In this document: piece after piece, positions 1 to 18,197 of the stretch
Position numbering within the stretch: position 1 is the stretch's first letter
Layout: every line of letters begins with the position of its first letter
From: Nitrosovibrio tenuis
GTDB lineage: Bacteria; Pseudomonadota; Gammaproteobacteria; Burkholderiales; Nitrosomonadaceae
DNA length: 64,000 nt
Reading direction: 5' to 3'
NCBI RefSeq assembly: GCF_900109785.1
Contig: NZ_FOBH01000004.1
Span: 124,001 to 188,000 of the forward strand
The notes under the pieces: model-generated
The model's input: only the letters and a program-made list of their open reading frames with translations
Database searches by the model: none
Told to the model about the DNA's origin: nothing
Program-made: the position numbers and the translations under genes

Positions 1-1293
1 TTTGCCGATGTCCTGCACCGCCGAGCGCGTGCGATAGGTAATCACAGTCGCCGCGATGGCGGCGCGATCCCGGCCATATTTACCGTAGATATGCTGGATC
101 ACTTCTTCCCGACGCTGATGCTCGAAATCGACATCGATATCGGGAACCTCGTTTCGCTCCCTGGAAATAAACCGCTCAAACAGCAAATTGCTGCGCTCCG
201 GATCGATTTCGGTAATGCCCAGGCAATAGCAGACTGCAGAATTGGCCGCCGAGCCGCGTCCCTGACAGAGAATGTCCTGCGAGCGGGCGAACCTTACGAT
301 ATCGAATACTGTTAAAAAATAAGGCTCATAGTTGAGCTCCGCAATCAGCTTTAATTCATGTTCGATTTGTCCCCTGACCTTGGCTGAAACGCCATTCGGA
401 AAACGCCGGGTGATGCCCTCTTCAACCATGCGCCGGAGATAACCCGCATAGGTCTCGTCTGTTCCGGTTAATTCGTCAGGATATTGGTAGCGCAGCTCAT
501 TCAGCGAAAAAGTACAGCGGGCGGCAATGTTTATGGTCTCGCGCAGGAGTTCCGGCGGATAAAGCTGCCCCAGTCGCGGTCTGGCGCGCAAATACTGTTC
601 CGCATTAGGCTCCAGCGCATAGCCGCATTCAGCCAGCGGTTTACCCACGCGAATGGCGGTCATCGTATCCTGCAGAGGCTTGCGGGAAGCATCATGCATG
701 ACGACATCCCCCGCAGCCACGAGTGGCATGCCTGTGATATCCGCCGCCAGTTGTATCCGCTCGAACAATTGATCTTCGCCACCGTGAAGCAACAGCTCGA
801 CAGCGGTCCAGCAGCGACCAGGAAAGAGCGACAGCGCCCAGCGCATGTCATCCATCAAAGTGCTGTCCGCCTGGGTGAGACCGGGAATCAATAAGACGAG
901 ACAGTCTTGTAGCAGCGCGAGATGAGGCGCATCCGGGCAGTTTTCAAAATCCTCACGGCTGATGCGATAAGCGCCTTTCTCGGCGCGTTGCCGTGCCAGT
1001 GTGATGAGTTCGCACAGGTTGCCGTAGCCATTCAGGTTCATGGCCAGGCATACCAGCCGCAATCCATCCTCCAGCATGAATTCGCTGCCAATGAGAAGAT
1101 GCAGGCCGACTTTTTTGGCTTCGGAATGGGCTCTTACAACCCCGGCCATAGAGCATTCATCGGTAATGGCAAGAGCTGAATAGCCCAGGCTTGCGGCACG
1201 TTCGACCAGCTCTTCCGGCATGGAAGCGCCTTTCAGGAAGCTGAAACTGGAGCGGCAATGAAGCTCGGCGTATGAGCAAATGGCGGAATACAT
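1..1293 (-). CDS. dnaE2: Error-prone DNA polymerase DnaE2/ImuC, N-terminal part (cut by window edge)
   Basis: Encodes the first 431 residues of an alternative C-family polymerase that carries out translesion synthesis with ImuA and ImuB. The N-terminus has the DnaE2-type PHP region ([15 protein letters not shown] near residues 9-23, then [12 protein letters not shown]). Near nt 121-150 the protein reads VPDIDVDFE, the catalytic-aspartate motif of C-family polymerases. Family members run to about 1030-1080 residues, so more than half lies beyond the left edge. The ATG at 1293 follows the imuB stop by 14 bases without a clear Shine-Dalgarno, suggesting translational coupling; a later in-frame start closer to ELHC cannot be excluded. 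It is the last gene seen in the lexA-imuA-imuB-dnaE2 operon, so SOS induction is expected. Confidence 0.93.
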
Positions 1294-1307
1294 GAGTAGA
1301 AGCTGCC

Positions 1308-2894
1308 TTATCCAAACAATCCCTGCAAATACCAGCTCGCATCTTTGTTCCCTTTATCCCCGTCCTTTTTATCCTTGCTCTCTTTATCCTCGCCTTCCTT
1401 ATCCTTTTTTATCGGATCATATTCACGGTAAATCCAGAGCAATTGGCCCAGTGCATTCTCGGCAATGAAATAATCGCGCGCGATCAACGCATCATCCCAC
1501 CAACCGGCTTCGATCCGCTCCGGCCCCGCGAGCAGTTTCAATGGCGAACCATAAACCGGCTGGTGGCGTTGCAGCTTCAGTTCCAGCGGGGTTTCGATTA
1601 GCCAGGCGGGACGAGGTAACTCGGCTGGAATGATTTCATGGCGTGAAATTCTGTCCTTTTCCTTCGTTCTTCTCGTTTTTCCTCTCCCTGCTGCCTCTGT
1701 TTCCAAAGGCTCGAATCTCTGGCTGCACTCCGGCCGATGGTCGGGGACAGCTTTCAAGCCTGTGATGGCCTGGGGCCCCAGGCGGGCAGAAAGTTTCTCG
1801 ATAAATCGGTTCAATGAGGTTGTCTCCGATTGCGCGCTGGGGAACAGTTCCAGATTGGCATTTGCCCCCGCTGCGATTTCATCCGCTATCAGCTCGAGTT
1901 CGCAGACCGGGGCAGCCAGTTTTGCGCGCTCCAAGCGCTCGCGCAGCAAAAGCATTAAATGGCGGGAGTCGCCGCTTTGTTCGGAAAGCCGTATGTCGAT
2001 GGGCGTGGATTTATGCGGCTGCCGGAGAGAAAATTCATGATGCAGGACAAACGAAAATGCCAAAGCTGCTGCATGGCGCGAAGCCAGCCATCCGCACATC
2101 TGTTCGATCAGCCGCTGCACGGGAACCCACAACAACTCGACATTTTCAACTTGCGCCAATAGCCTGAATTTTTGCTGGAAGGTTTCGGGCGCTGCAAACC
2201 ATTTCCGTGGATCGGGGGAGTCGCCATAAGCACAATCCAATTCAGCCAGCAGATCCGGACCAAATCGGCGTGCTAGCCCGCTGCGGGGCAGTCTCCGCAA
2301 ATCGGCAAGTGCTTTGCAGCCTATGCCGCGAATGACTTCAAGATGAGGCTGGGCTGATTCCAGCAGATTGACAGGCAGGGAATCGAGCAACAAGCGGAAC
2401 CTGGCGGCTGTCCCATTGACAACGGTTCGAGGTTGAGCTGACCGCGCGAGCAGCCATGCTCCCCTGGCGGTAGGAGCGACACCTGTACAGATTTGCAAAC
2501 CCTGCGCGGTGACGGCCCGGTTGAGTAATTGGCACAGCTTTTTCAGGCCGCCGAACAGCTTCAGGCTTGCGGAAACTTCGCCCATCAGGCCGCTGTCTTG
2601 CAAAATAATATTGGGCGTGAAGCGCAACGCGGCATACACGGCCTCCTGCAATGCTTTCATTTCCTCGTTGGGGTCCTGTTCCACCACCACCAGGCCCGGA
2701 AAAAGCGCCATGGCACTGGCAAGGGTCTGATGAGCCGCTATTCCCCGCTCTTGCGCCGGCTTGTTGGCCTGCTGGATATAGCTCTGATTACCTTTGCGGG
2801 CAGTCACCGCCATTGCGGGAATGAGCGCAGCGGGAAACCGGCGCTCAATCCAGTCAAGCGACAGTGCCGGGCAATGAAGAGCGATCCACAGCAT
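1308..2894 (-). CDS. imuB: ImuB, Y-family polymerase-like mutasome protein
   Basis: Non-catalytic Y-family polymerase homologue of about 528 residues that bridges DnaE2 to the beta sliding clamp. I start it at the ATG at 2894 ([15 protein letters not shown]), the usual ImuB beginning; the longer upstream reading runs through the imuA 3' end and looks spurious. The Y-family acidic motif near the N-terminus is replaced by [11 protein letters not shown], as expected for ImuB, which lacks polymerase active-site acids. ANLELFPS in the C-terminal third resembles a beta-clamp binding motif. The end ([21 protein letters not shown] then WYLQGLFG) is ImuB-like but is split by an unusual Lys/Asp/Glu-rich insert. 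The start overlaps imuA by 41 bases. Confidence 0.92.
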
Positions 2895-3636
2895 TGTGAG
2901 ATGATGAATTGTGGGGCAAGGAAAATACCCCAGCGGAGCTGGAGAAAGGTCTGGTCGGGGGCAAGATAATACGGATCGGCAAAGCAGCTGGAGCGCCCCG
3001 GCGCTTGAGCACACGAACGGAAAGAGCGTGCTGTCGCGCTGAACCAAGCACTACTCTGAGGGGCGCTGCGGAGGGTTCAAATTGGGCACTCACCGGCCTG
3101 AACAAAAAAACCACACTGGTGGCAGCCCGCGCAATGATTTGCAGTCTGCGCGTCATTTGCTGGCTTACCTGAGAGAGCCAGCCGATCACGATGCCAAAGG
3201 CGGCGCTTTTGATGCCTTGCTCAAGTGCCCATAATCGCTCGGCGGGCTTGTAAACCCTGGCCATTACAATGCGCCCGCTATCGATATTCAGATTCTCCCA
3301 CGCATGCATGTAGGGAATATAAGGGGGGCCTACCAATAAAATATTTCTTCCTTTCCCAGTGATCTGCTCGAGCGATGGACCCAACAAACTGATTTCGCCC
3401 AGCCCTTCCGCATTCAACAACAATTCTGTCAGATTCCGGGTAGGCCATCCCCCTCCGGGCAATTCCTTGTCCAGTTTATCGAAACCACTGGAAACAACCG
3501 GGTCGGCTGCAGATCCTAATGCATCGCCGCGCCATATTCTGCCCTTGAATCGAGCCTCTATTTGTAATAGCGATAGCGGCGATACTGAAGGTACTGGTAC
3601 TGGTGACAGGGATGGGGAAGCAGCAGGCATTGGCAT
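2854..3636 (-). CDS. imuA: ImuA, RecA-like mutasome protein
   Basis: A 260-residue RecA/SulA-related protein of the SOS mutagenesis cassette. It shows the family pattern SSGFDKLDKELPGGGWPTRNLTELL, spread over about residues 48-73, then ISLLGPSLEQIT and NILLVGPPYIPYMHAWENLNI. It probably contacts RecA and ImuB at stalled replication forks. It begins 16 bases after the lexA stop and its 3' end overlaps imuB, so the genes are co-transcribed. The first 20 residues are low-complexity Pro/Ser/Val repeats from a repetitive DNA stretch, so the true start may be further in; no other strong start was found. Function is assigned from family and order. Confidence 0.9.
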   Translation of the reverse strand: MPMPAASPSLSPVPVPSVSPLSLLQIEARFKGRIWRGDALGSAADPVVSSGFDKLDKELPGGGWPTRNLTELLLNAEGLGEISLLGPSLEQITGKGRNILLVGPPYIPYMHAWENLNIDSGRIVMARVYKPAERLWALEQGIKSAAFGIVIGWLSQVSQQMTRRLQIIARAATSVVFLFRPVSAQFEPSAAPLRVVLGSARQHALSVRVLKRRGAPAALPIRIILPPTRPFSSSAGVFSLPHNSSSHNAVDRSSLPGTVA

Positions 3637-3652
3637 GGCGAAAATTCATCAC

Positions 3653-4288
3653 TTACAGGCTGGAACCGGGGCGGGCATGAGGGCGGTGTGGGGCCACATG
3701 GGCTTTGCGGATCAGGCCCACATAAAATCCGTAGATTTCCAGCTTCTGCTCGGGCCGGATGGGCGGATAGTCCCTGCCCCGTTTTTCGTTGCGCGCTTCG
3801 AGGTAATAGCCTTCCTGATCCCTGGCCAGGACTTTGAGGGTGAATTCATTATCCACAATGGCCAATACGACTTGACCGATCGAGGCTGTATTGCCCCGCT
3901 CGATAATCACCATATCGCCCTCGAGTATTCCCAGATCGATCATCGAATCCCCCTTGACGGGAAACAGAATGGTTTGGGATGGCTTTTCGATCAGATAGTC
4001 ATCGATGCGCAACAGCTCAGGCTGAACGTCGAAAGCCTGTTGCGGCAGTCCTGCCCATACCCTATGCCCGACCGTGCGCTCGAAAAAGCGGAGCGTGGGG
4101 CGCAGCCGGCCGCCGGGCGCATTTTCCAGAAAACCTTCTTCCTTTAGCCGTTGAACGATCTGGTGGGTCCAGGAACGCGCTTTTACATTCCACAGCGCGG
4201 ACAATTGGGTAGTCGATGGAATGATTTTTTCGCGGACATAGTAATCCTGAAGTTTGCCAAGGTAAGTAAAAATGTCGAGTTGCTGCAT
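3653..4288 (-). CDS. lexA: LexA-type SOS repressor
   Basis: A 211-residue repressor with an N-terminal winged-helix DNA-binding domain and a C-terminal S24 self-cleaving peptidase domain. The cleavage site is Ala79-Gly80 (GHRVWAGLPQQ), the nucleophile Ser115 lies in KGDSM and the general base is Lys152 (NEFTLKVLARD), so the auto-proteolysis machinery is intact. I chose the ATG at 4288 over an upstream TTG at 4303 that lies inside the operator. It leads the imuA-imuB-dnaE2 cassette and probably represses it. The recognition region differs from the main betaproteobacterial LexA type, fitting the different operator sequence upstream. A second, housekeeping lexA may exist elsewhere in the genome. 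Confidence 0.93.
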   Translation of the reverse strand: MQQLDIFTYLGKLQDYYVREKIIPSTTQLSALWNVKARSWTHQIVQRLKEEGFLENAPGGRLRPTLRFFERTVGHRVWAGLPQQAFDVQPELLRIDDYLIEKPSQTILFPVKGDSMIDLGILEGDMVIIERGNTASIGQVVLAIVDNEFTLKVLARDQEGYYLEARNEKRGRDYPPIRPEQKLEIYGFYVGLIRKAHVAPHRPHARPGSSL

Positions 4289-4300
4289 GATGGAATTAAT

Positions 4301-4346
4301 CAAGAACGTTTGTTCTCATTATAGAGAACAAACGTTCTTGATTCAA
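4301..4346 (-). promoter_or_regulatory. lexA promoter with twin LexA operators
   Basis: A perfect 17-bp inverted repeat (4301-4317 and 4324-4340) is separated by six bases. On the minus strand those six bases read TATAAT (4318-4323), an ideal -10 box. Seventeen bases upstream is TTGAAT (4341-4346), a good -35 box. Each arm contains the palindrome GAAC-N4-GTTC (GAACGTTTGTTC at 4304-4315, its complement at 4326-4337). One operator thus fills the spacer and the other covers the transcription start. This box resembles the Gram-positive SOS box rather than the CTGT-N8-ACAG site usual in beta- and gammaproteobacteria. Confidence 0.9.
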
Positions 4347-4432
4347 TTCAAGCGAGCGATCTCCTGCTTGCTAATGGATACAGTAATTGGAATGCGTAGT
4401 GAATGCGCCCTGTCTGGCGCACCATGAAACAT

Positions 4433-4462
4433 AAAAAAAACGGCCATCAACTGATGGCCGTC
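4433..4462 (-). terminator. Rho-independent terminator of the copper operon
   Basis: Read on the minus strand, a 10-bp stem (ACGGCCATCA / TGATGGCCGT) with a two-base centre is followed by eight T residues. It lies about 30 bases after the stop codon of the large multicopper oxidase gene and marks the end of that operon. Confidence 0.9.
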
Positions 4463-4490
4463 ATTTAAGAGCGAGTTTCAGTAATTATTA

Positions 4491-7322
4491 TTAATTACGC
4501 GATGCGTTTTGTTGGGCGGGCGTCAATTGGTCCTTCCATTCTCCCGGCAGATTCTTAACCCAGCTATTGTATACATTGGGAATAGCAAGAACCCCCTGGC
4601 CACCATAGCCTGCCAGACTGCTGATGCGATCATCGGTTTGCGTATTGCCATCACTTACCAGTGAAACCCGGCCCGCGATCATGGCATCAGATAAATCTCC
4701 ATCATTGTTGGGATCGGCGTCCACCACGATAAGCTCATTGGAGAACTTGCTGGTTACATAGGCGTAGTACCCTCCTCCTTTCTTTGCTCCAAAATTGGCT
4801 CCGTGGCAGCCTGCATCGCAGGGCAGCATCTTGGCCACCTTGTCGGTAGCGGTATCGATGACAATTATCGACTGGCCCATATTCGCAACGACTACGGCAC
4901 GGCCATCGGGGGAAACGGGTAACTGGATGGGGAGCATGCCGACGGTAGCCTGCCCGTCACTATCGCGGTCGACTATGGTGCCATCAATGGGATTGTAGTC
5001 GGCGATAAGGTTGATGGTTTTCTTCAAGGTCCCATCCTTATTGATGACGCTCACACTATGATGCAACAGGTTGGCCGCATAGAATTTGCTTGCGTCCGGC
5101 ATCATGCCGATAGCGATAGGGTGAGCCCCGGGGGCGGAGTCTCCCGTTGGAGTTCTCTCCAGGATGCCGCCGCTATTGATGTCATAAAAACCCACATCAC
5201 TCGTAAAAATGTTGGGCGTGACGGCCAGGGCCTGATTCCCGTCCACGCTAATCCAATGTCCGTGAGGATTTGTGGCAGGCTGACCGGCTTTCTGCGTGGG
5301 CATCATCCGGGCGACTTCGGTTGTTCCTGCCGGGATCATGGACATGCCGTCCTCGCCATTATTGGTAACCGTGATGTCATCGTTGTCGGGGCGCGTCATG
5401 ACATGGGCCGGAGCTTCGCCTACCTGTATGTTTTTGATCAACGCCCCCGTTTTCTTGTTGATCATGGTCAATTTGTTATCAAACCATTGGGTCTGATAGA
5501 CCACCGATTGATCCCTGTTGGTCCACATATTGTGCGGGTTATTCATATTGATCTGCGGCAAGGCGATCTTGCGCGCCGGTTTCCAGGTGCTCGCGTCAAC
5601 GACAGTGATAGTTCCGGGCTTGGTCTTGCCTGCGGTTTTCTCAAACTGGGTATCGACCCATACCTCACCCACGCCTGGAATTGCGGGGGCAATAGGCGGT
5701 GTCAGGGCAATATCGTTGCCGTATCGAGCGATCAAGACATCCGACAGATTGGCGACCGCCCCGCCGGTGATACGGACGGGAACGCTGGGATAGGTCACCT
5801 TCCAGGGCGTGGTAGAGGTAAAATCTTGCCAGTTGTTGGGGGCGGTAGCGATAAAGAAGATTCTCAGCAACCGTGTGGCGAGGTCGCTGCTCGTTGGGAG
5901 ATTCACAATGCCGGTAGCAAGATCGATGCTTTCGCCGAGATCAAGCCCGTCGGTTGCCGGGTCATCCACGATGACTGCGCCAAACATATAAGGATGTACC
6001 TTACAGGTAAATACATATAAACCCGGCGTCGTCAGCTTGACAATACCACCACCTTTGTAGGCTCGGCTTTGATCAAAGGGCATCGATGCATGCTCCGATT
6101 TGGCCTTGTCGCGCCCTCTGCCTCTACCCTTGTCGTGATTTCCGTGGTTGCCGTGATTGGAGTGCTGCTTGGCGTGGTGACCATTGATAGGGTCGTCCGC
6201 TCCACTGGGCCAAAGCAGGCTGGTCATGGTGTGCACGGTGTTGGTCTCCGCCATGATAAAGTTGACGCTGCTGCCTGGCGGAATGACTTCCAGGGAGCGG
6301 GTGCCGCCGGTAATTTTGAAAATGGTATCGGCCCGGGCGCTTCTGTACCAGCTTGCCGGTTCATCCGAAATTACGAATGTGACGAGGCCGGGGTCATCGC
6401 TTGCATTGCCAAAAATGGCGCCATGAGGGGATGCACCGGCAACGCTGTTACCTGGCCCCTTTTTTGAGCCTTTGTTTGCATCAACTCTAAAACTTCCATG
6501 CATGCCCGCTTCCATATGGGAAAACAGGTGGCAGTGGTACTGCCAGTGGCCTGGGCCAACTCCGGTGCCCGCTTTAAGGGTGAAAGTGTGGCCGTCGGAA
6601 CCATCTGCCATCAGTTTGACGTCAATGATGCTGTTGGTACCCGGTTCAAACCACCGATGAGCGTGCAGGTGGAAGGTATGGCCCGGTCCTGCCGACAGAA
6701 TATGAAATCTGACGATATCCTCCTCCACCGCTCCCAGAACCGGATTGGTCCACAGTGGTGTCTGTGTTCCGGTTTTAGAAATTTCTGTTCCCCAGAAGGT
6801 CGAGCCAACCATGAATAAGACGTACTGTTTATCCAGTTCTGATGCTTTTACCGATTTGATCGCACCATCACCGTCAACGTATCGTTCTACCTTCCCATCC
6901 ACGCTATCAACGACGATGGCTCCAAACAGGCCGAGAAGCTCCTGTCCATCACCTAAGTAGGGATGAGCGCCTGTTTTGCTGGCATTGAATGAGTAGCTTA
7001 TCGTCCCTCCGGGTCCTGCTTTCGCAGCGCTGGTGTTCGAAAGCCCGGGTACCTTGAATCCTGCGGGTTTACCTGTATTGTTGATGACTGTGATATTGAC
7101 AGTGTCGCCCTGTTTCACAAAAAGAGTCGGTCCTGGGATAACCGCAGGCCTGTCTCCCCGTTTGTAACCGAACTGACCGTTGGGTAAAACCTCGGCAGAC
7201 AGATTGATGTCATGAGTTGCCGCCCTTGCCATGGATGGGGCCAAAACCAAGGCCGCCAGCAGCGCAAAGGTCATCGCGGTTGTAGCGACTTTCTGCTTAA
7301 ATCCAAGAATATTGTTGCTCAT
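4491..7322 (-). CDS. Multicopper oxidase-like/cupredoxin/beta-propeller protein (last-domain copper motifs only)
   Basis: A 943-residue exported protein with a signal peptide ending near MARA-ATH (residue 35). Residues about 37-140 form a cupredoxin domain in which the first-domain motifs HxHG and HxH are lost (GKPAGFKVPG; GAHPYLGD). Residues about 140-282 keep the last-domain motifs HTFHLHAH (215-222) and HCHLFSHMEAGM (263-274), giving type 1 copper ligands and half of a trinuclear site. Residues about 310-455 are another cupredoxin with H364, C440, H443 and M446 and a His-rich insert (about 382-411). The rest, about 545-920, looks like a YVTN-type beta-propeller. SD AAGGA precedes the ATG. 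It follows the complementary oxidase gene by 42 bases. Substrate unknown. Confidence 0.88.
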   Translation of the reverse strand: MSNNILGFKQKVATTAMTFALLAALVLAPSMARAATHDINLSAEVLPNGQFGYKRGDRPAVIPGPTLFVKQGDTVNITVINNTGKPAGFKVPGLSNTSAAKAGPGGTISYSFNASKTGAHPYLGDGQELLGLFGAIVVDSVDGKVERYVDGDGAIKSVKASELDKQYVLFMVGSTFWGTEISKTGTQTPLWTNPVLGAVEEDIVRFHILSAGPGHTFHLHAHRWFEPGTNSIIDVKLMADGSDGHTFTLKAGTGVGPGHWQYHCHLFSHMEAGMHGSFRVDANKGSKKGPGNSVAGASPHGAIFGNASDDPGLVTFVISDEPASWYRSARADTIFKITGGTRSLEVIPPGSSVNFIMAETNTVHTMTSLLWPSGADDPINGHHAKQHSNHGNHGNHDKGRGRGRDKAKSEHASMPFDQSRAYKGGGIVKLTTPGLYVFTCKVHPYMFGAVIVDDPATDGLDLGESIDLATGIVNLPTSSDLATRLLRIFFIATAPNNWQDFTSTTPWKVTYPSVPVRITGGAVANLSDVLIARYGNDIALTPPIAPAIPGVGEVWVDTQFEKTAGKTKPGTITVVDASTWKPARKIALPQINMNNPHNMWTNRDQSVVYQTQWFDNKLTMINKKTGALIKNIQVGEAPAHVMTRPDNDDITVTNNGEDGMSMIPAGTTEVARMMPTQKAGQPATNPHGHWISVDGNQALAVTPNIFTSDVGFYDINSGGILERTPTGDSAPGAHPIAIGMMPDASKFYAANLLHHSVSVINKDGTLKKTINLIADYNPIDGTIVDRDSDGQATVGMLPIQLPVSPDGRAVVVANMGQSIIVIDTATDKVAKMLPCDAGCHGANFGAKKGGGYYAYVTSKFSNELIVVDADPNNDGDLSDAMIAGRVSLVSDGNTQTDDRISSLAGYGGQGVLAIPNVYNSWVKNLPGEWKDQLTPAQQNASRN

Positions 7323-7364
7323 TTTTTATCCTTTATATACCTGTTCGCTAGGTGCATCTTCCCA

Positions 7365-8384
7365 TTAGTGGCCGGCGTTGACGTTGAAGCTCCCCTTCAT
7401 CCCCATCAATTTGCGTGAGAAATTTGCGTTTAGATATTGCGCGCTGTCCGATGCTTTGATCGTAAATACGTGTTTCTCCAGGGGACCGATATCTTTGGTA
7501 TTGATCATTTTTGTGGTGCCCGGATCAATCCATTGATAACCCCCGAGCTGGAATCGGTTCAAGTAAGTACCCATGGCGATGAGATGAAACCTGATGTTGT
7601 CATCTCTTTTTGCGGTCAGGAGGGGATTGACTCCGAGCCATGTTTGTTTCTTGCTCACGCCGTCAATTTCCATTCCCCAGAACGCATCGTCGCTCATGTA
7701 AAGCACGTAATCCTTTTTGATGTGGGATATGGGTAGACTGGTAATACTGCCGCCGTTACTCGCGGCCACCATGCCGGATGCCGGATTGACAATGACGGCG
7801 CCGTAAAGACCTTTGTCTTCGGAACCGTTGTGTGTTTCGTAATTGTGGTCGTGGTATGGCCAGGTACCCGCGGTACCCGGTGCAACATCCCAGAGGTAGG
7901 TATAGAAGCGTCCCCCGTGGTCCGGATAGGCACCTTCATCTTCAATCTTATTGATAACTTTGAGCGAGCCATCGCTCAAGATCGTGTAATGGACACCGTG
8001 TACATGGACGCTGACCTGCTGATCTGGGGTAATCGTAATAGCATTGCGAATCGTGAGCCGAACCTTGTCCCCCTCCGTGAGAACGATTGTCGGTCCCGGA
8101 ATGGTGGCGTGCGGGCTGTATCGGGAGGTAATATTTACGCCGTTGACGTGGTGCTCGACCATTCGATAGGCGAGCAATCCGTCGGCGGTTTGTTCCCCGA
8201 TCATTTCAATGCGATGGTCAGCACTGATGCTTTCACCGGAATGCAACAAAAACATCGTCAGAAAAAAGGTAGATGAAATTGTCAACCGAGTAAAAACACG
8301 CTTGAATCCGCTTGCAATTGACGAGGTAAACAGGTGATCAGAAGCAAAAAACTCCCCCGCATCACAGCTATGTTGGTACATCAT
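7365..8384 (-). CDS. Two-domain multicopper oxidase-like protein (first-domain copper motifs only)
   Basis: A 339-residue exported cupredoxin protein with a hydrophobic N-terminal segment (about residues 33-48). Domain 1 keeps the trinuclear-site motifs HVHG (127-130) and YHDH (177-180). Domain 2 has lost the partner motifs: TYLNRFQLGGYQW (273-285) stands where HTFHLHAHRW occurs in the downstream protein, and QYLNANFSRKLMGM (316-329) where QYHCHLFSHMEAGM occurs. By itself it cannot build a complete trinuclear cluster. SD GAGGAG lies about 10 bases before the ATG. As first gene of the pair it probably sets expression of both. It most resembles two-domain laccase/nitrite reductase-like proteins. 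Confidence 0.87.
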   Translation of the reverse strand: MMYQHSCDAGEFFASDHLFTSSIASGFKRVFTRLTISSTFFLTMFLLHSGESISADHRIEMIGEQTADGLLAYRMVEHHVNGVNITSRYSPHATIPGPTIVLTEGDKVRLTIRNAITITPDQQVSVHVHGVHYTILSDGSLKVINKIEDEGAYPDHGGRFYTYLWDVAPGTAGTWPYHDHNYETHNGSEDKGLYGAVIVNPASGMVAASNGGSITSLPISHIKKDYVLYMSDDAFWGMEIDGVSKKQTWLGVNPLLTAKRDDNIRFHLIAMGTYLNRFQLGGYQWIDPGTTKMINTKDIGPLEKHVFTIKASDSAQYLNANFSRKLMGMKGSFNVNAGH

Positions 8385-8771: not shown

Positions 8772-9509
8772 CTATTGCAGATTGTTGGTATGAGTTGTTG
8801 ACTGAGAGGCTGTCGCAATAAAGTGGTGGTGGTGGAGTTTGGCAAACATGAAAAGATCAAAGCGGTTGGTGATTTCCAATTTGCTGAAAATGGACGTTAG
8901 ATGATTCCGCAAGGTCTGTTCGCCGATATATAGCTTTTTCGCGAGTTTTTTATTCGAAGCGCCCGCTTCGGTTGCGAATGCGTTGATGATCAAGCGCTCT
9001 TTTCGGGTAAGACTGGCAATTTTTTTAGTGATGCAGTCTTCAGGCTTTTGGCCTGTGCGTAAAAAGTTGCTGAAGATACGTCCGGTAGTACCCCGGTCGA
9101 GCCACAGTTCGCCCGCATGTATCTTTTCGATGGCTTTGAGGATGTTTTGGGTGGACTCTTCTTTATAAATAACGCCGCGCGCCCCATTCAGTACAGCCCC
9201 GTCAACAGCGGCCTGATCGTGAATCTCGGTAAAGATGATAATGTGGGAGCGCTCTTCCTCCAGCAGATTCGGGATGAGGTCTATGCCTTTTTCCATTCCG
9301 AGATAAAGGTCGAGTAAAACGACATGGGGCTTCTTCTCTCTGGCCAGCCGCGTAGCATCCAAGCCATTGGTTGCCTTGCCAACAACTTCCATGCGCGGTG
9401 ACTCATTATTTATGAGCTTTTCGAGCCCCCAAAGAACGATCTGATGACTATTAACCAGGAGGACGTGAATGGACATGTCGGAAGTGGAATTATTAAATTT
9501 TTCTGCCAC
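8772..9509 (-). CDS. NarL/LuxR-family response regulator with altered acidic pocket
   Basis: About 245 residues: an N-terminal receiver domain (about 13-130) and a C-terminal LuxR-type helix-turn-helix (about 165-230, LTRKERLIINAFATEAGASNKK...GEQTLRNHLTSIFSKLEI, here given in two parts). The phospho-acceptor Asp67 (VVLLDLYLG), Thr94 and Lys116 are present. The acidic pair usually next to the first strand is Asn20-Ser21 (LLVNSHQIV), so Mg-dependent phosphorylation may be weak or absent. The start may be GTG 9509 or ATG 9476 (MSIHVLLVN). No sensor kinase lies nearby. It sits between the copper operon and the pilus-like operon, so either could be its target. Confidence 0.85.
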   Translation of the reverse strand: MAEKFNNSTSDMSIHVLLVNSHQIVLWGLEKLINNESPRMEVVGKATNGLDATRLAREKKPHVVLLDLYLGMEKGIDLIPNLLEEERSHIIIFTEIHDQAAVDGAVLNGARGVIYKEESTQNILKAIEKIHAGELWLDRGTTGRIFSNFLRTGQKPEDCITKKIASLTRKERLIINAFATEAGASNKKLAKKLYIGEQTLRNHLTSIFSKLEITNRFDLFMFAKLHHHHFIATASQSTTHTNNLQ

Positions 9510-11640: not shown

Positions 11641-13505
11641 GTCAAGTTGTTGAATCCGCCATGCCATCGCCGGCAAGCGCTTCGATAGTGGTTGAATCCG
11701 CCGTGCCATCGCCGGCAAGCACTTCGATAGTGGTTGAATCCGCCGTGCCATCGCCGGCAAACGCTTCGATAGTGGTTGAATCCGCCCTGCCATCGCCGGC
11801 AAGCGCTTCGATACTGGTTGAATCCGCCGTCCCATCACCGGCGATCGCTTCAATCGATGCACGTCAGCTTTTTGAAGCGCGTGCAGAGGCGGCCAGCCAG
11901 GGTATTCCGGTCATCCGGCTGCTGGAGGAACAATACGGCTGGGCGCCGGATGTCTTGATTGCGGAACTCGGCAGGCTGCTGCGGATGCCCGTATTGACAA
12001 TGGAGAATCTGCGCTCTTTTCATACCGCGTTTGAAAAATTGTCTTTTAATGAAGCGGTCACGCAGGAATGCGCGTTGTTCCGCGATGGAGATGATTACAT
12101 TCTGGCTGTAGGCAATCCGTTCCTGCCTCATCTGAGAGCCTGGGTGGAGGATCGTATTGACACCCCTGCAGCGTGGCATTTGGTCCACCCAGCCGATCTG
12201 GCTGCTTTTTTCTCGCAGCAGGAACAGACGATGCGCGCCATGGACAGCGTGCTCCCGGCGGCCCATCGCCGTGCCGAACAGGCGGGTGAGGAAAACCTTT
12301 CGCTCAAGACCATCAACGAAGGCACCAGCCCGGTGGTGCGGCTGGTGCATTCCACGTTATATGACGCGCATAAATCGCAGGCGAGCGATATTCATCTTGA
12401 GATGGCAACCGGAGCGCTATCCATCAAGTATCGAATAGATGGTGTACTGACGGCAATTGGGGTTGTGCAAGGCGCCGATCTGGCGGAACAGGTCATTTCC
12501 CGCATCAAGGTGATGTCCGATCTGGATATTGCCGAGCGGCGCGTGCCTCAGGATGGTCGGTTCAAGATTTCCATCCAGGGCCGGGAAATTGATTTTCGCG
12601 TATCGATCATGCCGAGCATTTTTGGCGAAGATGCGGTGTTACGTATCCTCGACCGCCAGGCGCTGGCAGATCACGTCGAAGGCCTCACGCTTAATCATCT
12701 CGGATTCGACAAGCCCACTATGGCGGGCTTGCGGCGCCTGAGTTCGGAGCCGTATGGAATGCTGCTTGTGACCGGTCCTACCGGCAGCGGCAAAACCACA
12801 ACGCTTTATGCAGCGATTTCCGAAGTCAACACCGGCCACGACAAAATCATCACCATTGAAGATCCGATTGAGTACCAGTTGCCGGGCGTACTCCAGATTC
12901 CCGTCAACGAAAAGAAGGGGCTGACGTTCGTGCGGGGCTTGCGCTCCATTCTGCGCCACGACCCCGATAAGATTATGGTTGGCGAGATTCGGGACCCGGA
13001 GACCGCGCAAATTGCAATACAAGCCGCGTTGACGGGCCATCTGGTTTTCACAACGGTCCATGCCAATAATGTATTCGACGTCATCGGGCGTTTTTCACAT
13101 ATGGGCGTGGATCCTTACAGTTTTGTGTCAGCCCTCAACGGAATCGCGGCGCAAAGGCTGGTTCGCCTGCTTTGCGCACACTGCGCGATAGAAGAACGCC
13201 CGGACGAGCAGCTGATTCGGGAATCCGGAATCGATCCTGAACATGCCCGCACGTTCCGGTTTCGTGCGGGAAAAGGTTGCGGTCAATGCCGGGGAAGCGG
13301 TTACCGGGGACGCAACGCGATTGCGGAGATGCTGGTGCTGAATGATGAAATTCGCGAACTCATCGTGGCGCGGGAACCGATCCGACGGATAAAGGAAGCG
13401 GCAAAGCGCAATGGCACCCGTTTCTTGCGTGACGCGGCGCTTGATATGGTAAGTACCGGGCAAACCAGCTTACAGGAGGCCAACCGTGTCACTATTGTGG
13501 CATGA
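11637..13505 (+). CDS. gspE: Secretion/pilus assembly ATPase GspE with N-terminal repeat
   Basis: A 622-residue GspE/PilB ATPase driving pseudopilus assembly from the cytoplasm. After a repeat-encoded segment (residues about 5-74) come the N-terminal MshE-like domain and the catalytic domain. The Walker A motif GPTGSGKTTT is at about 380-389; the His box, TIEDPIEYQLPG and a tetracysteine zinc element (CAHC and CGQC pairs) follow. The TTG start at 11637 lies after GGGAAG and overlaps the gspF stop; ATG 11661 is an alternative that would still include most of the repeats. The 42-bp tandem repeats have no counterpart in ordinary GspE. The 3' end overlaps the next gene by 20 bases. Confidence 0.94.
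   Translation: MSQVVESAMPSPASASIVVESAVPSPASTSIVVESAVPSPANASIVVESALPSPASASILVESAVPSPAIASIDARQLFEARAEAASQGIPVIRLLEEQYGWAPDVLIAELGRLLRMPVLTMENLRSFHTAFEKLSFNEAVTQECALFRDGDDYILAVGNPFLPHLRAWVEDRIDTPAAWHLVHPADLAAFFSQQEQTMRAMDSVLPAAHRRAEQAGEENLSLKTINEGTSPVVRLVHSTLYDAHKSQASDIHLEMATGALSIKYRIDGVLTAIGVVQGADLAEQVISRIKVMSDLDIAERRVPQDGRFKISIQGREIDFRVSIMPSIFGEDAVLRILDRQALADHVEGLTLNHLGFDKPTMAGLRRLSSEPYGMLLVTGPTGSGKTTTLYAAISEVNTGHDKIITIEDPIEYQLPGVLQIPVNEKKGLTFVRGLRSILRHDPDKIMVGEIRDPETAQIAIQAALTGHLVFTTVHANNVFDVIGRFSHMGVDPYSFVSALNGIAAQRLVRLLCAHCAIEERPDEQLIRESGIDPEHARTFRFRAGKGCGQCRGSGYRGRNAIAEMLVLNDEIRELIVAREPIRRIKEAAKRNGTRFLRDAALDMVSTGQTSLQEANRVTIVA
11649..11858 (+). repeat. Five tandem 42-bp repeats inside gspE
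   Basis: Five consecutive copies start at 11649, 11691, 11733, 11775 and 11817. Each encodes 14 residues of the form VESAVPSPASASIV; the last copy is most diverged. Copies differ by few bases, so the array is probably recent and could change in number. There are no spacers, so it is not a CRISPR array. Confidence 0.95.
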
Positions 13506-14328
13506 CCGGCTTCAGGTTTTTTTTGCTCCTGCTCGGGTCATACTCGTGCGCTCGTATAAAGGCGTGAAACCAAAACCTGCCACACAACTATCCGTCGAAT
13601 GTGAGCATAAGCCGGATCAAGCTGCATGGGAATCTCCGCTTGCGCAATTGGAGGAGATAATTGCTAACGCCCAAGGAACCGAAGTAGTCATTACTCTTTC
13701 CAATCACTTTATGCGATACGCGGTTCTGGCTTCGCAGAAAAATATTGCGAGCGCTGCTGAATTGCATGCATATGCGGAATTTCACATGCGTGAAGTATTT
13801 GGAGAACGTGCGGCGGAATGGATGATTAGTGTAAGCGCCTGGGACCCATGCAGCGGCGGTGTCTGCGCGGCAATGCCGCGCAGCCTGTTCGAACGGCTGG
13901 AAGAACTTACCGCGCGCGGCAAGACAAGGCTGAAATATATCGAGCCTTACTTAACCGCGACATTCGATCACTGGCGCAAACACTTCGATGCCCGCCGGGG
14001 GTGGTTCGTATTGGTCGAAACCGGCCGTTTTTGCCTTGCTTTGCTGGAGGACGGAGCCTGGCAGCGAATAAGCAATCAGAGAATCGTCCATAATCTGGAA
14101 GATGAACTGCTTGTAACGCTCGATCAGGAGGCAATACTCTTTTCCGGACGCAAGGAAGCGATCGAAACAGTTTATTTATTCGCGCCAGAGCATCCGCAAC
14201 TGATATTGCCTGAGGATTGCGGTTGGCGGGTTACTTCTCTGCATACTGTCAATACGCTTCCTCCACCGCATTACCCGGCCGGCGCTATTGTTCCTGATAA
14301 GGCCAACGAATGCGCAGCCTCAGGCTAA
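13486..14328 (+). CDS. PilM/GspL-like cytoplasmic assembly protein
   Basis: A 280-residue protein in the position of PilM or the cytoplasmic part of GspL, between the ATPase and PilN/PilO-like genes. It starts with GTG at 13486, supported by AGGAGG six bases upstream (13474-13479). The sequence is weakly conserved; LEEIIANAQGTEVVITLSN and the alternating strand/helix pattern (WFVLVETGRFCLALLEDG) suggest an actin-like fold. No membrane segment is visible, favouring PilM over full GspL. It would dock the ATPase to the inner-membrane PilN/PilO pair. Assignment rests mainly on order and size. Confidence 0.72.
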   Translation: MSLLWHDRLQVFFAPARVILVRSYKGVKPKPATQLSVECEHKPDQAAWESPLAQLEEIIANAQGTEVVITLSNHFMRYAVLASQKNIASAAELHAYAEFHMREVFGERAAEWMISVSAWDPCSGGVCAAMPRSLFERLEELTARGKTRLKYIEPYLTATFDHWRKHFDARRGWFVLVETGRFCLALLEDGAWQRISNQRIVHNLEDELLVTLDQEAILFSGRKEAIETVYLFAPEHPQLILPEDCGWRVTSLHTVNTLPPPHYPAGAIVPDKANECAASG

Positions 14329-14837
14329 GATTCCCGGACAGCGGGGGCGAAGCGCGGCAAGCCGGCTATGCCGTTATGATGCTCGGTATAATCGTTCTGG
14401 CCGGAGTGCTCTATCAATTCCAGGTGGCCATGAACGAGGTGGCTTATTGGGATCTGCGCATTGCCAGCATGGACCGGCGGATAGAGCGAAAAACGTCGCC
14501 CGAGGTTTTCTCCGGGCCGGAGAGACCGGAGATGAAACGGGAGGTAAGAAAAGCCAATGCAGTGATGAGCGAACTTGATCTGCCTTGGGGAGCTCTGTTT
14601 GATTCGATCGAGTATGCCTCAAGCCACGATGTGGCTCTGCTCTCGATTCAGCCCGATGCCTCAAGCCGAAAGATGCGAATTGGCGGCGAAGCCAAAAATA
14701 TTCCGGCGATGCTCGAGTTCGTGGGCGCCCTTGAGCGCGAGCCCGCGCTAAAGGACGCTCACCTGCTCAAATACGAGATCAAGCGCGATGATCCGCATCG
14801 GCCCGTGACCTTCTTCGTATCCGCATCATGGGCTTGA
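14310..14837 (+). CDS. PilN-like inner-membrane assembly protein
   Basis: A 175-residue bitopic protein: a short cytoplasmic N-terminus, one membrane helix (about residues 19-38, YAVMMLGIIVLAGVLYQFQV), a helical stretch, then a small alpha/beta periplasmic domain (about 100-175). This architecture and the position just before a PilO-like gene point to PilN/GspL C-terminal type. It overlaps the genes on both sides by a few bases, showing tight coupling. It probably pairs with the next product in the inner-membrane ring. Confidence 0.72.
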   Translation: MRSLRLRFPDSGGEARQAGYAVMMLGIIVLAGVLYQFQVAMNEVAYWDLRIASMDRRIERKTSPEVFSGPERPEMKREVRKANAVMSELDLPWGALFDSIEYASSHDVALLSIQPDASSRKMRIGGEAKNIPAMLEFVGALEREPALKDAHLLKYEIKRDDPHRPVTFFVSASWA

Positions 14838-15406
14838 GTCGATTATCCGACATGATCCTGCGGATACGGTGGCAGGCGGAGCAGCTTGGCACGCCGGGAA
14901 AAATCGGCCTGGGGCTGTTGGTTTTTTCAATAGTGTTTTTTGTGGCGGCAGTATTGCCTCGCCAGGCGGAGTCGAGCGCCCTGATGGTCGAGGCAGAGAC
15001 CATGCAGGCGCGCTTAAGAGCAGAACCTGCGCCGGAAGGCGAGAAAGCGACCCGAAAGATACCGCGCACGCAAGGGTTGAAAGTATTTTATGCTTTTTTT
15101 CCGAATACTGATTCGACCCCATTCTGGATCGCGGAAGTGGTACAGGCCGCGGCAAAGAACGGTGTGGAAATCAATGGGACAGAATATCGCATGGACCGGG
15201 AGAAAGAAGTGAAACTGGCGCGCTATGAGATGATATTGCCAGTTCGGGGGCAATATCCGCACGTGCGCGGTTTTGTTGCCGATACCCTGCGGGCTGTCCC
15301 GGCACTCGCGCTTGTCGATGTTGCGATAAAACGCGAGAGCGTACAATCGGAATTGCTTGAAGCAAACCTTAAATTCAATCTCTATCTGAGCGAAGGCAAG
15401 AAATGA
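14828..15406 (+). CDS. PilO/GspM-like inner-membrane assembly protein
   Basis: A 192-residue bitopic protein with one membrane segment (about 26-44, IGLGLLVFSIVFFVAAVLP), a charged linker and a periplasmic ferredoxin-like domain (about 85-190) containing YEMILPVRGQYPHVRGFVAD, typical of PilO. It should heterodimerise with the PilN-like protein and connect the motor to the secretin via the following PilP/GspC-like protein. It overlaps both neighbours by 4-10 bases. Confidence 0.72.
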   Translation: MGLSRLSDMILRIRWQAEQLGTPGKIGLGLLVFSIVFFVAAVLPRQAESSALMVEAETMQARLRAEPAPEGEKATRKIPRTQGLKVFYAFFPNTDSTPFWIAEVVQAAAKNGVEINGTEYRMDREKEVKLARYEMILPVRGQYPHVRGFVADTLRAVPALALVDVAIKRESVQSELLEANLKFNLYLSEGKK

Positions 15407-15951
15407 AACAGGCCGCGGGGCGAGGGCGGGCATTGTGGCTGGGCGGTGCCCTGGCGGCAGCGCTTCTCGCCGCTCAATGGGTGAGCGGAGAAGACGGCGG
15501 CGCGGATTCGGGGCGAGCGGTTGAAGACACGATGCCACGAAAGGAAGTGCGCCCTCCGGAAAACCAACCGGCAAAGGAAACAGGACGCGACGCCGCAAAT
15601 GAAGCCGAGCAGTTACAGCTCGAGCGATTGGAGCGCCGGAAATTCAGTGCGCAGGCAGGTGACATTTTCCGGAACCAATCATGGGCACCGCCGCCTCCGC
15701 CTGCCTCTTCGAAACCCCCTCCTCCGGCACCGCCACCCCTGCAATTCAAGTATCTCGGCAGAGTTACCGAAGGAGATGAAACGCGAGTGTTTCTAGCTCT
15801 GGCCGAACGTAATTATATTGTCAGGCCGGGGGAGAACATCGATAGCCAGTATCGAATGGATGCGGTGAACGAACACGCCATCACCCTCACCTATCTCCCT
15901 CTTAACGCAAAGCAGATGCTTGCTATCGCAGGGCCAGGGAACGTTCAATGA
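15403..15951 (+). CDS. PilP/GspC-like connector protein
   Basis: A 182-residue protein with an N-terminal hydrophobic segment (about 10-24), a charged and proline-rich linker (PPPPPASSKPPPPAPPP near 85-104) and a small C-terminal HR-like domain (LQFKYLGRVTEGDETRVFLA...). This layout matches PilP or GspC homology-region proteins, which bridge the inner-membrane platform to the secretin. The proline run probably spans the periplasm. It ends with a four-base overlap into the secretin gene. Confidence 0.7.
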   Translation: MKQAAGRGRALWLGGALAAALLAAQWVSGEDGGADSGRAVEDTMPRKEVRPPENQPAKETGRDAANEAEQLQLERLERRKFSAQAGDIFRNQSWAPPPPPASSKPPPPAPPPLQFKYLGRVTEGDETRVFLALAERNYIVRPGENIDSQYRMDAVNEHAITLTYLPLNAKQMLAIAGPGNVQ

Positions 15952-18197
15952 CAATGGGGAAGTGCCTGGTAGTTGTCCTGATCCTGGCTGCGTTCACTGG
16001 ATGCGCGACAAATAAGGCGTTTGTCGAAGGCAAGCGGCTGATTGCGGAGGGCAAGATGGATATGGGCCTTGCCGCCCTGGAGAAGGCGGCGCGCGAGGAC
16101 CCGGATAACCTAGAGATTCGCGCGGTGCTTGCCCGGCAGCGCGAAGCGGTCGCTGCGCGTATTATGTTCGAAGCTGATAACGCCCGTTCGTCCGGGGATC
16201 TTGCCGCCGCCGAGCGGGGGTATCGTCATGTACTTGAGATAAACCCGCGCCATGAGCGCGCGGAGGCTGGCCTGGCTGCGCTCGATATGGATCGCCGGCA
16301 CATGGCGCTCATGAAACATGCGGAAGAACTATTGGAACGCAACGATTACGCGGCCGCGGAAGCCGAAGTCCGGTCGGTGTTGCAGGATAATCCCATGCTG
16401 CGGGATGCCCGGCGGCTTATGCAGCGTATTCTGGAATTGGAACTGCAAGGTGACAAGATGGGGCCGGTATTGAAGACAGCGTTCAAGAAACCGGTTACGC
16501 TCGAGTTTCGCGACGCGGGTTTGAAATCCATATTTGAAATCATGGCTCGCACAGGTGGAATCAATGTCGTTTTTGATAAAGATGTCAAGCAGGACACCAA
16601 GACCACTATTTTCGTCCGCGACACGCTTATCGAAGACGTATTCAAGCTCTTGCTCGTGACTAACCAGCTCACGCACAAAGTGCTCAATGAAAATTCGGTT
16701 CTGATCTATCCTAATACCCCCGCCAAGCAAAAGGAATATCAGGAGCTGATGGTGCGTAGTTTTTATGTTTCCAATACCGATGTTAAGCAGATAGTCGCGA
16801 TGGTTAAAGGATTGGTTAAAACCAAGGACGTGCATATCGACGAAAAGCTCAATCTTTTTGTCATGAAGGACACCGCGGATGCGATTCGTCTGGTCGAGCG
16901 GCTTGTCTCGCTCAATGATCTGGCCGACCCGGAAGTCATGCTGGAAGTCGAGGTTCTGGAAATCGGACGCAACCGCCTGCTCAATCTCGGCTTGCAATAT
17001 CCCGATAAGATTACGGTGAACATGCTTACCGCTGGCGCTGCCGCTGCCGGCGTTCCAGCGGCTTTCCAGATCAGCAGGTCGGGGGTTAACGGCAACGGAG
17101 CAAATCTGGATCAGCTAACCGGATTCATTGCCAACCCGGCATTGCTTATCAATCTCAAGCAGCAGGACGGAATCGTCAACGTTCTGGCCAATCCGCGGAT
17201 ACGGGTAAAAAACCGTGAAAAGGCAAAGATTCTTATTGGCGACAAGGTTCCTGTGGTCACAACGACGGCCACGGCTAATGTCGGCATTGCCTCATCAGTG
17301 AGCTATCTCGACGTGGGACTCAAGCTGGACGTGGAATCCACGGTTTCGCTACAGGATGAGGTTTCAATGAAGCTCAGCCTTGAAGTCAGCACTATTGTCA
17401 AGGAAGTGCAGATCGCAAATGGGGGGCTCGCCTACCAGGTGGGAACGCGTACCGCGGCCACGACGCTTGCGTTAAGGGACGGTGAGACGCAGGTTCTGGC
17501 GGGACTGATCAGCGATGAAGAGCGTACTACCCTCTCCAAGGTGCCCGGGCTGGCCGAACTGCCGTGGCTGGGCAAACTGTTTACGAATTATAATGTCACC
17601 CGCAACAAAACGGAAATTGCGCTCCTCATTACGCCGCGCATCGTGCGCAATATTGCCCGACCCACAAAATCGGCCAGTGAACTTCATTTTGGTACCGAAA
17701 CCACGGTTGGGGTGCCGCCGCTGACAATTGGGAAGGCGGCCCCGCGATCGCTCGCCATATCGTCCGGTTCGGCGGCTGGCGGTGCACCTGGCGGGCCTTC
17801 CCAGCCTGCTCGTTTACCGGATGAGCCGCCCGCGCCGCAAGCTGCTAGCGCTGGCTCTCCGACTATAACAATATCGGCACCCGAGCAAGTGCTCGCAGGC
17901 AAGGAATTCGCAGTCAACGTCAACCTTTCCGGCGCGGAAGCATTCCCCCCCGGTGAGCTGGAGCTGAATTACGATGCCAGCGCGCTTGAATTACTGGATG
18001 GGGGAGACAAGTCGGGGGCTCGCGTGTTGAAGCTCGGCAAGGGCGGAGGAGCGGTGGAATTGCGCTTCCAAGCTGTTGCGCAAAAGCCCGGCTCAGCCCA
18101 GATCGCCGTTAAGAACGTCACTTTCCGGGATGAAGCCGGCAATCTCCTTCCTGCCCCGGTTGCGTTACCGCCCGCGGTCAGCGTTGATATTCGTTGA
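15948..18197 (+). CDS. gspD: Outer-membrane secretin GspD-like lipoprotein with TPR and cohesin-like domains
   Basis: A 749-residue secretin. The lipobox ends at Cys19 (LAAFTGC), so it is probably lipid-anchored. TPR-like repeats fill about 25-165, followed by secretin N-domains (VTLEFRDAGLKSIFEIM...) and the secretin domain (about 300-580, LANPRIRVKNREKAKILIGDKVPV; VGLKLDVESTVSLQDEVSMKL, each given in pieces). The C-terminal 115 residues (about 635-749, ITISAPEQVLAGKEFAVNV to VSVDIR) resemble a cohesin domain. Secretins with cohesin-like tails occur in environmental proteobacteria, but no dockerin partner is visible here. It should form the gated exit channel of this machine. Confidence 0.9.
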   Translation: MTMGKCLVVVLILAAFTGCATNKAFVEGKRLIAEGKMDMGLAALEKAAREDPDNLEIRAVLARQREAVAARIMFEADNARSSGDLAAAERGYRHVLEINPRHERAEAGLAALDMDRRHMALMKHAEELLERNDYAAAEAEVRSVLQDNPMLRDARRLMQRILELELQGDKMGPVLKTAFKKPVTLEFRDAGLKSIFEIMARTGGINVVFDKDVKQDTKTTIFVRDTLIEDVFKLLLVTNQLTHKVLNENSVLIYPNTPAKQKEYQELMVRSFYVSNTDVKQIVAMVKGLVKTKDVHIDEKLNLFVMKDTADAIRLVERLVSLNDLADPEVMLEVEVLEIGRNRLLNLGLQYPDKITVNMLTAGAAAAGVPAAFQISRSGVNGNGANLDQLTGFIANPALLINLKQQDGIVNVLANPRIRVKNREKAKILIGDKVPVVTTTATANVGIASSVSYLDVGLKLDVESTVSLQDEVSMKLSLEVSTIVKEVQIANGGLAYQVGTRTAATTLALRDGETQVLAGLISDEERTTLSKVPGLAELPWLGKLFTNYNVTRNKTEIALLITPRIVRNIARPTKSASELHFGTETTVGVPPLTIGKAAPRSLAISSGSAAGGAPGGPSQPARLPDEPPAPQAASAGSPTITISAPEQVLAGKEFAVNVNLSGAEAFPPGELELNYDASALELLDGGDKSGARVLKLGKGGGAVELRFQAVAQKPGSAQIAVKNVTFRDEAGNLLPAPVALPPAVSVDIR

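Follow-up and report, generated by a model that had tools for sequence, protein, structure and literature searches.

The window analysed here, 64,000 nucleotides from Nitrosovibrio tenuis (contig NZ_FOBH01000004.1, positions 124,001 to 188,000), contains two adjacent genes encoding multicopper oxidase (MCO)-like proteins, termed A and B. Both open reading frames (ORFs) are intact, lie on the minus strand, and are separated by 42 bases (Table 1). The host genome carries ammonia monooxygenase (AMO), and its closest named relatives are Nitrosospira and Nitrosovibrio, in keeping with an ammonia-oxidizing member of the Nitrosomonadaceae. Protein A matches the Pfam family Cu-oxidase_3, and a hydrophobic stretch at its N-terminus suggests that it is probably exported. 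Protein B matches Cu-oxidase_3, Cu-oxidase_2, and Lactonase, and its N-terminus resembles a signal peptide. The best PDB sequence matches of both proteins are two-domain laccases, mostly from Streptomyces.

Table 1. Features of the A-B locus, in window coordinates (TNC, trinuclear copper cluster; T1, type 1 copper site)
Feature	Position	Strand	Length or basis
Protein A, two-domain multicopper oxidase paralogue with the domain-1 half of the TNC	7365..8384	-	339 aa
A domain 1, ~residues 57-200	7785..8216	-	TNC ligands kept in 75/75
A domain 2, ~residues 220-336	7377..7727	-	copper motifs lost
Protein B, two-domain oxidase paralogue fused to a cupredoxin and a seven-bladed propeller	4491..7322	-	943 aa
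B domain 1, ~residues 37-140	6903..7214	-	TNC motifs lost (GFKVPG; GAHPYLGD)
B domain 2, ~residues 165-282	6477..6830	-	TNC and T1 ligands in 78/78
B third cupredoxin, ~residues 305-455	5958..6410	-	type 1 ligand set; structure model
B C-terminal seven-bladed YVTN/lactonase-type beta-propeller, ~residues 551-930	4533..5672	-	Pfam Lactonase; structure model
NarL/LuxR-type response regulator, recurrent upstream neighbour in bacterial loci	8772..9509	-	Pfam Response_reg and GerE

Complementary copper ligands in A and B

In MCOs, the first His of the HxxHxH motif is a T1 ligand while the other two bind the TNC, so that the eight TNC His are contributed as two plus two by domain 1 and two plus two by domain 2. 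Protein A retains the domain-1 set, H127 and H129 (HVHG) together with H178 and H180 (YHDH), and has TYLNRFQL and NANFSRK at the sites of HxxHxH and HCHxxxH in its domain 2. Protein B has lost the domain-1 motifs and retains those of domain 2, HTFHLHAH and HCHLFSHMEAGM, which provide the T1 ligands H215, C264, H269, and M274 and the TNC ligands H218, H220, H263, and H265. An earlier note on this DNA had described this division of motifs; it is confirmed on both intact ORFs and recurs across the homologues.

The alignment comprises 75 A and 78 B sequences from ammonia-oxidizing bacteria and archaea, all distinct and many of them close kin, together with three intact relatives (described below) and two Streptomyces SLAC-type proteins. 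Fragments of A with at most 230 aligned residues (L063, L107, L115), truncated or broken B ORFs (L103, L104, L106, and the second fragment of L125), and proteins that lack oxidase domains (L121, L129, L130, L131) were excluded. Each of the four domain-1 TNC His is present in all 75 A sequences, and the corresponding counts in B are 0, 0, 37, and 0 of 78. Conversely, the four domain-2 TNC His are found in 0, 0, 0, and 1 of the A sequences and, at every position, in all 78 of B. The motifs HxHG and [WYF]HDH accordingly occur in 75/75 A and 0/78 B, and HxxHxH and HCHxxxH in 0/75 A and 78/78 B. A complete T1 set (His, Cys, His, Met) is carried by 78/78 B, and the intact relatives and the SLAC-type proteins carry every TNC and T1 ligand. 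Relic His persist at the third domain-1 position in 37 of the B sequences and at the fourth domain-2 position in a single A (L087), so the loss amounts to three or four ligands and not always to all four. The first domain-1 motif is an alignment gap in 13 B rows, and the same gap is seen in 13 archaeal B rows. Summed at the level of sequence, A and B hold all eight TNC ligands, as the earlier note had proposed, and the T1 site, which lies solely in B. Such a complementary pattern is far beyond chance.

The cupredoxin and propeller that make up the C-terminal half of B were not mentioned in the earlier note. The T1 ligands of this third cupredoxin (H364, C440, H443, M446) are present in 83/83 aligned sequences. 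A CuZ-like site, as in nitrous oxide reductase, was considered for the propeller, where seven His seemed invariant in 13 sequences; it was dropped when H734 and H755 failed to exceed 90% in 83 sequences. An assignment of B as a lactonase-type nitrous oxide reductase was likewise rejected, its score against NF052460 being 27.8 bits compared with a cut-off of 700, and among the matches of the propeller NosZ is outranked, with thirteen other propellers placed ahead of the first NosZ row. In contrast to nitrous oxide reductase and the lactonase-type L-NosZ, the cupredoxin of B is of the single-Cys T1 type.

Co-occurrence of the pair and its intact relatives

When 61 related genomes were searched with A as query and with a B profile, 14 of them proved to encode A; these same 14, and no others, encode full-length B, so that neither occurs singly (Fisher p 4e-14; the genomes are related, hence not independent). 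The question raised by the earlier note, whether both genes always occur together, is thereby answered in the affirmative for these genomes. The pair is accessory: of the family's 37 sampled genomes, 14 carry it. Four further genomes of this family carry a cupredoxin-propeller in stand-alone form only. Full-length versions of this stand-alone protein are found in G003, G007, G008, G021, G024, and G033. Outside the window, the source genome (G000) also encodes a 179-residue fragment of a second cupredoxin-propeller gene (L143, C15:99040-99498; E 3.1e-36), perhaps the remnant of a stand-alone copy.

Among public genomes, 80 of 151 relatives were kept, giving 79 loci. In 72 of these A lies next to B, giving 74 pairs, in a scan that was seeded by B motifs and that an A without B would escape, searches with A covering the 61 genomes only. 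Of the 79 loci, 69 contain A-B, two a tandem A-B-A-B arrangement, and one an A beside a broken B that lies in two frames; the other seven have a B-type protein only. The tandem double pairs belong to Nitrosomonas (L059 and L088). Gaps between the paired ORFs range from -268 to 60 bases, with the exception of L106, in which B is broken. Two of the B-type-only loci lie at contig ends (L062, L103), L121 and the Nitrospira loci L129-L131 encode cupredoxin-propeller proteins with no recognised oxidase in the locus, and the seventh is the archaeal locus L112, considered below. By record title, the hosts are Nitrosospira, Nitrosovibrio, and Nitrosomonas, and in archaea Nitrosocosmicus and other Nitrososphaerales, in addition to a few metagenome bins labelled Chromatiales, Pseudomonadales, Burkholderiales, or merely Proteobacteria. 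The survey refutes the notion that the half-sites are degenerating pseudo-enzymes or annotation or sequence errors of one genome: the same pattern recurs in 14 genomes of the family and the genes are neighbours in nearly all of the public loci, leaving this explanation with next to no probability.

An oxidase elsewhere in the source genome (C19, ~284 kb) was examined as a possible partner and set aside: all four motif types are present and its C-terminal half differs, which makes it another oxidase. This gene (L033 1568-4627) encodes an intact 1019-residue MCO, and homologues of 1012-1024 residues are found in six other genomes of the genus.

The unduplicated form of the enzyme also exists. 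In a class sample of 369 genomes and on a Methylocystis rosea plasmid, a two-domain oxidase was found in G309 (L140), in G082 (L141), and on the plasmid (L150; WP_204982133 / WP_245435095). All three carry the eight TNC His and T1 in one chain and are directly followed by a separate cupredoxin-propeller gene. These intact pairs are the closest relatives found of A, of B, and of the C-terminal half of B, and they share the same gene order; they differ from A-B in having a single oxidase gene, no fusion, and no second paralogue within the stretches read. With the intact oxidase as query, a phylum-wide sample of 398 genomes yielded matches at E 1e-20 only in the source genome and G024. Near the plasmid pair, L150 also contains a COX1-family ORF with a separate upstream ORF, and NnrS (12036-14342, 14796-16004), which we take to be a nitric oxide reductase neighbourhood. 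AMO or particulate methane monooxygenase is present in G309 and not in G082. In the class sample, AMO is found in three of four genomes with a B-family match (source genome included; G082 lacks it) versus eight of 365 without, a suggestive association.

In a 60-row tree, A (100/98), B (99/91), and the intact proteins (100/99) form separate clades; support is lower (90/81) for the branch that unites A with the intact proteins. Both the A and the B clade divide into an archaeal and a bacterial part, and these mirrored splits indicate that the pair seems to have been inherited or transferred as a unit. Pairwise identities of A and B are correlated with a rho of 0.91 over 69 pairs.

The two halves of each protein have also diverged unequally. 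After masking of the motifs together with four residues to either side, A is closer to the intact type in domain 1 than in domain 2 in 73/75 (L140), 75/75 (L141), and 75/75 (L150) sequences, and B is closer in domain 2 than in domain 1 in 78/78, 78/78, and 76/78, respectively, the rows being related and these counts not independent. The bias suggests that each protein retained more of the half that is still needed.

The existence of intact relatives modifies the earlier view of a duplicated and split enzyme: the duplication is upheld, and the split gives way to a fusion of one copy to the cupredoxin-propeller followed by complementary ligand loss. The pair would have originated by duplication of an intact two-domain oxidase gene beside a cupredoxin-propeller gene, after which one copy would have fused to this neighbour and the two copies would have lost their ligands in complementary fashion. 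Traces of a T1 site in domain 2 of A are a sign that A may formerly have had a full site there.

A proposed shared trinuclear cluster and its alternatives

The reading favoured here, to which we assign a probability of about 85%, is that A and B form one obligate hetero-oligomeric MCO with a shared TNC. The earlier note had considered such an assembly natural, and it best fits the invariant half-sites, co-occurrence, adjacency, masked domain divergence, and mirrored trees. In this enzyme, A and B would be exported subunits, and the cluster would be composed of the four domain-1 His of A and the four domain-2 His of B. It would lie at the interface of these two domains, a site corresponding to the D1/D2' contact between subunits in the SLAC homotrimer. 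Electrons from the substrate would enter at the T1 site of B domain 2, or via the extra T1 cupredoxin of B, and travel over the HCH bridge to the TNC, where O2 would be reduced to water. The stoichiometry predicted is A2B, AB2, or a simple AB dimer. As a ring of three subunits cannot alternate, a closed A2B or AB2 ring would hold one cluster, resembling ceruloplasmin in this respect.

Known MCOs offer partial parallels. SLAC is a homotrimer with all ligands in one chain and the cluster between subunits. SLAC-type (type B) Streptomyces laccases share with the pair the fold, the domain order, the T1 site in domain 2, and, once A and B are summed, all four motifs; here, however, the ligands are divided between two genes, one of them fused to a cupredoxin and a propeller. 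In ceruloplasmin and other six-domain multicopper proteins, paired cupredoxin domains form a ring with a TNC at one interface only, within a single polypeptide instead of separate A and B subunits. MnxEFG and other multi-subunit complexes combine an MCO with further copper-binding subunits, and MnxG holds its own cluster ligands; for MnxEFG, the comparison is limited to a weak PDB sequence match (9bxa) and one Foldseek row. Searches of titles and abstract openings, with most subscription journals outside their scope, found no prior report of a heteromeric or complementary-site MCO.

Alternatively, A and B may form separate homo-oligomers devoid of MCO chemistry, each half-site binding one or two metal ions for some other purpose, such as storing copper or transferring electrons via the T1 sites of B. 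A half-site with its four His could bind copper unaided, and B, with its two complete T1 sites, could carry electrons without a cluster. Single quartets would nevertheless be free to drift, whereas both are invariant in the 75 A and 78 B sequences, and neither the perfect co-occurrence in the 61 genomes nor the adjacency of the genes is expected of proteins that act alone. We consider this explanation unlikely.

Several observations weigh against a shared cluster or complicate it. In domain 2 of A, the first T1 His is kept in 67/75 sequences and the Met in 73/75, and the position of the T1 Cys is occupied by Asp in 67/75 and by Cys in 0/75; these remnants could point to a role for A beyond the supply of half a cluster. 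The conserved replacement of Cys by Asp, with the Met kept, is accounted for by none of the explanations offered here. Conservation of the Asp and Met, and the fact that A is a whole two-domain paralogue, would also suit a model in which catalysis belongs to B, with A acting as a chaperone or copper-delivery subunit and lending its domain-1 His only transiently. Since B lacks at least three of the four domain-1 ligands in 78/78 sequences, mature B alone could hardly hold a TNC, and this model is very improbable.

The domains also differ in conservation. In B, domain 2 is more conserved than domain 1 in 99.7% of 2346 comparisons, while among A sequences domain 1 is barely more conserved than domain 2 (0.570 vs 0.546; higher in 66%). 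Given this low proportion, and because the SLAC rows also show greater conservation of domain 2, the comparison with the intact type was relied on instead.

The earlier note had held that homologues occurring alone would speak against an obligate pair. The three unduplicated homologues possess all eight ligands, and A never occurs alone in the 61 genomes, both of which agree with the pairing; L112, an archaeal B paralogue, does not, since its locus is without an A. The isolate that encodes L112 also has A-B pairs at L110 and L119.

The geometry of the proposed assembly raises a further objection, as two of the three interfaces in a trimer of two unlike subunits would be without a cluster. Folding A and B as a tethered chain (A 52-339, a linker, and B 1-465, with an alignment of 22 in-frame rows) was possible because the two genes share one frame, and the resulting model has a pLDDT of 77.4 and a pTM of 0.80. 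The pTM suggests a defined relative placement of the two proteins; as the interface cannot be read from it, this counts neither for nor against a shared cluster. Foldseek gave no good match of the tethered model to ceruloplasmin (5n0k; TMq 0.27, root-mean-square deviation 22.4) and a poor one to the sequential four-domain factor VIII (4bdv_A; TMt 0.32), and neither Foldseek nor VIA returned a multi-domain ring match for it. All of the 50 fold matches listed are two-domain laccases aligned to B alone, whose domains 1 and 2 structurally match the SLAC fold.

Neighbouring genes, archaeal counterparts, and significance

The gene upstream of A, which encodes a NarL/LuxR-type response regulator, is a neighbour that recurs in bacterial loci. 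It directly precedes A in 30/79 loci (tblastn; Pfam), and its product is a possible regulator of the pair. The region downstream of B (window 1-4303) resembles what we take to be an SOS mutagenesis cassette, with a LexA-type repressor, ImuA, ImuB, and DnaE2.

In Nitrosocosmicus, ferredoxin-like and ABM-domain genes are divergent from A-B (L128 3985-4905; L122 ~4088-4984); they do not occur within loci L107, which is short, and L126. The available excerpt of a study on Nitrosocosmicus franklandianus describes NFRAN_2029/2030 as two copies of one MCO type, 'MCO3', both upregulated in biofilm, with a ferredoxin and an ABM-monooxygenase as neighbours, and in that excerpt complementary sites are not mentioned (PMC12448741). 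On the basis of these shared neighbours, that is, of synteny and not sequence, the two MCO3 copies described there are probably A and B of the archaeal pair. Two other articles (PMC7785015, PMC11561398) discuss MCOs of the two-domain type in Nitrososphaera viennensis. In the literature consulted, MCO genes of ammonia-oxidizing archaea are counted as separate enzymes, while two adjacent 'copies' would, on the reading favoured here, be one.

The distribution and the neighbours only suggest a copper- or nitrogen-oxide-related role in ammonia oxidizers. A more specific proposal is possible though doubtful: an obligate hetero-oligomeric MCO shared as a unit by ammonia-oxidizing bacteria and archaea, with the cupredoxin-propeller as electron inlet, that may act on a reactive nitrogen intermediate such as NO, hydroxylamine, or HNO outside the central pathway.

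To the complementary motifs described in the earlier note, the present analysis adds an intact counterpart, a wide distribution across bacteria and archaea in which the pattern does not vary, and a further, putative module for electron transfer. If A and B do form a single enzyme, expressing either one singly would misleadingly yield inactive protein. The pair would then offer a clean example from nature of a gene duplication after which a single active site degenerated in complementary ways, a homo-oligomeric interface enzyme having become an obligate heteromer with its eight metal ligands divided between two genes. The intact type survives in relatives, in one instance on the plasmid of a methanotroph, and its continued presence would open the path from a homotrimer to rings like that of ceruloplasmin to experimental test.

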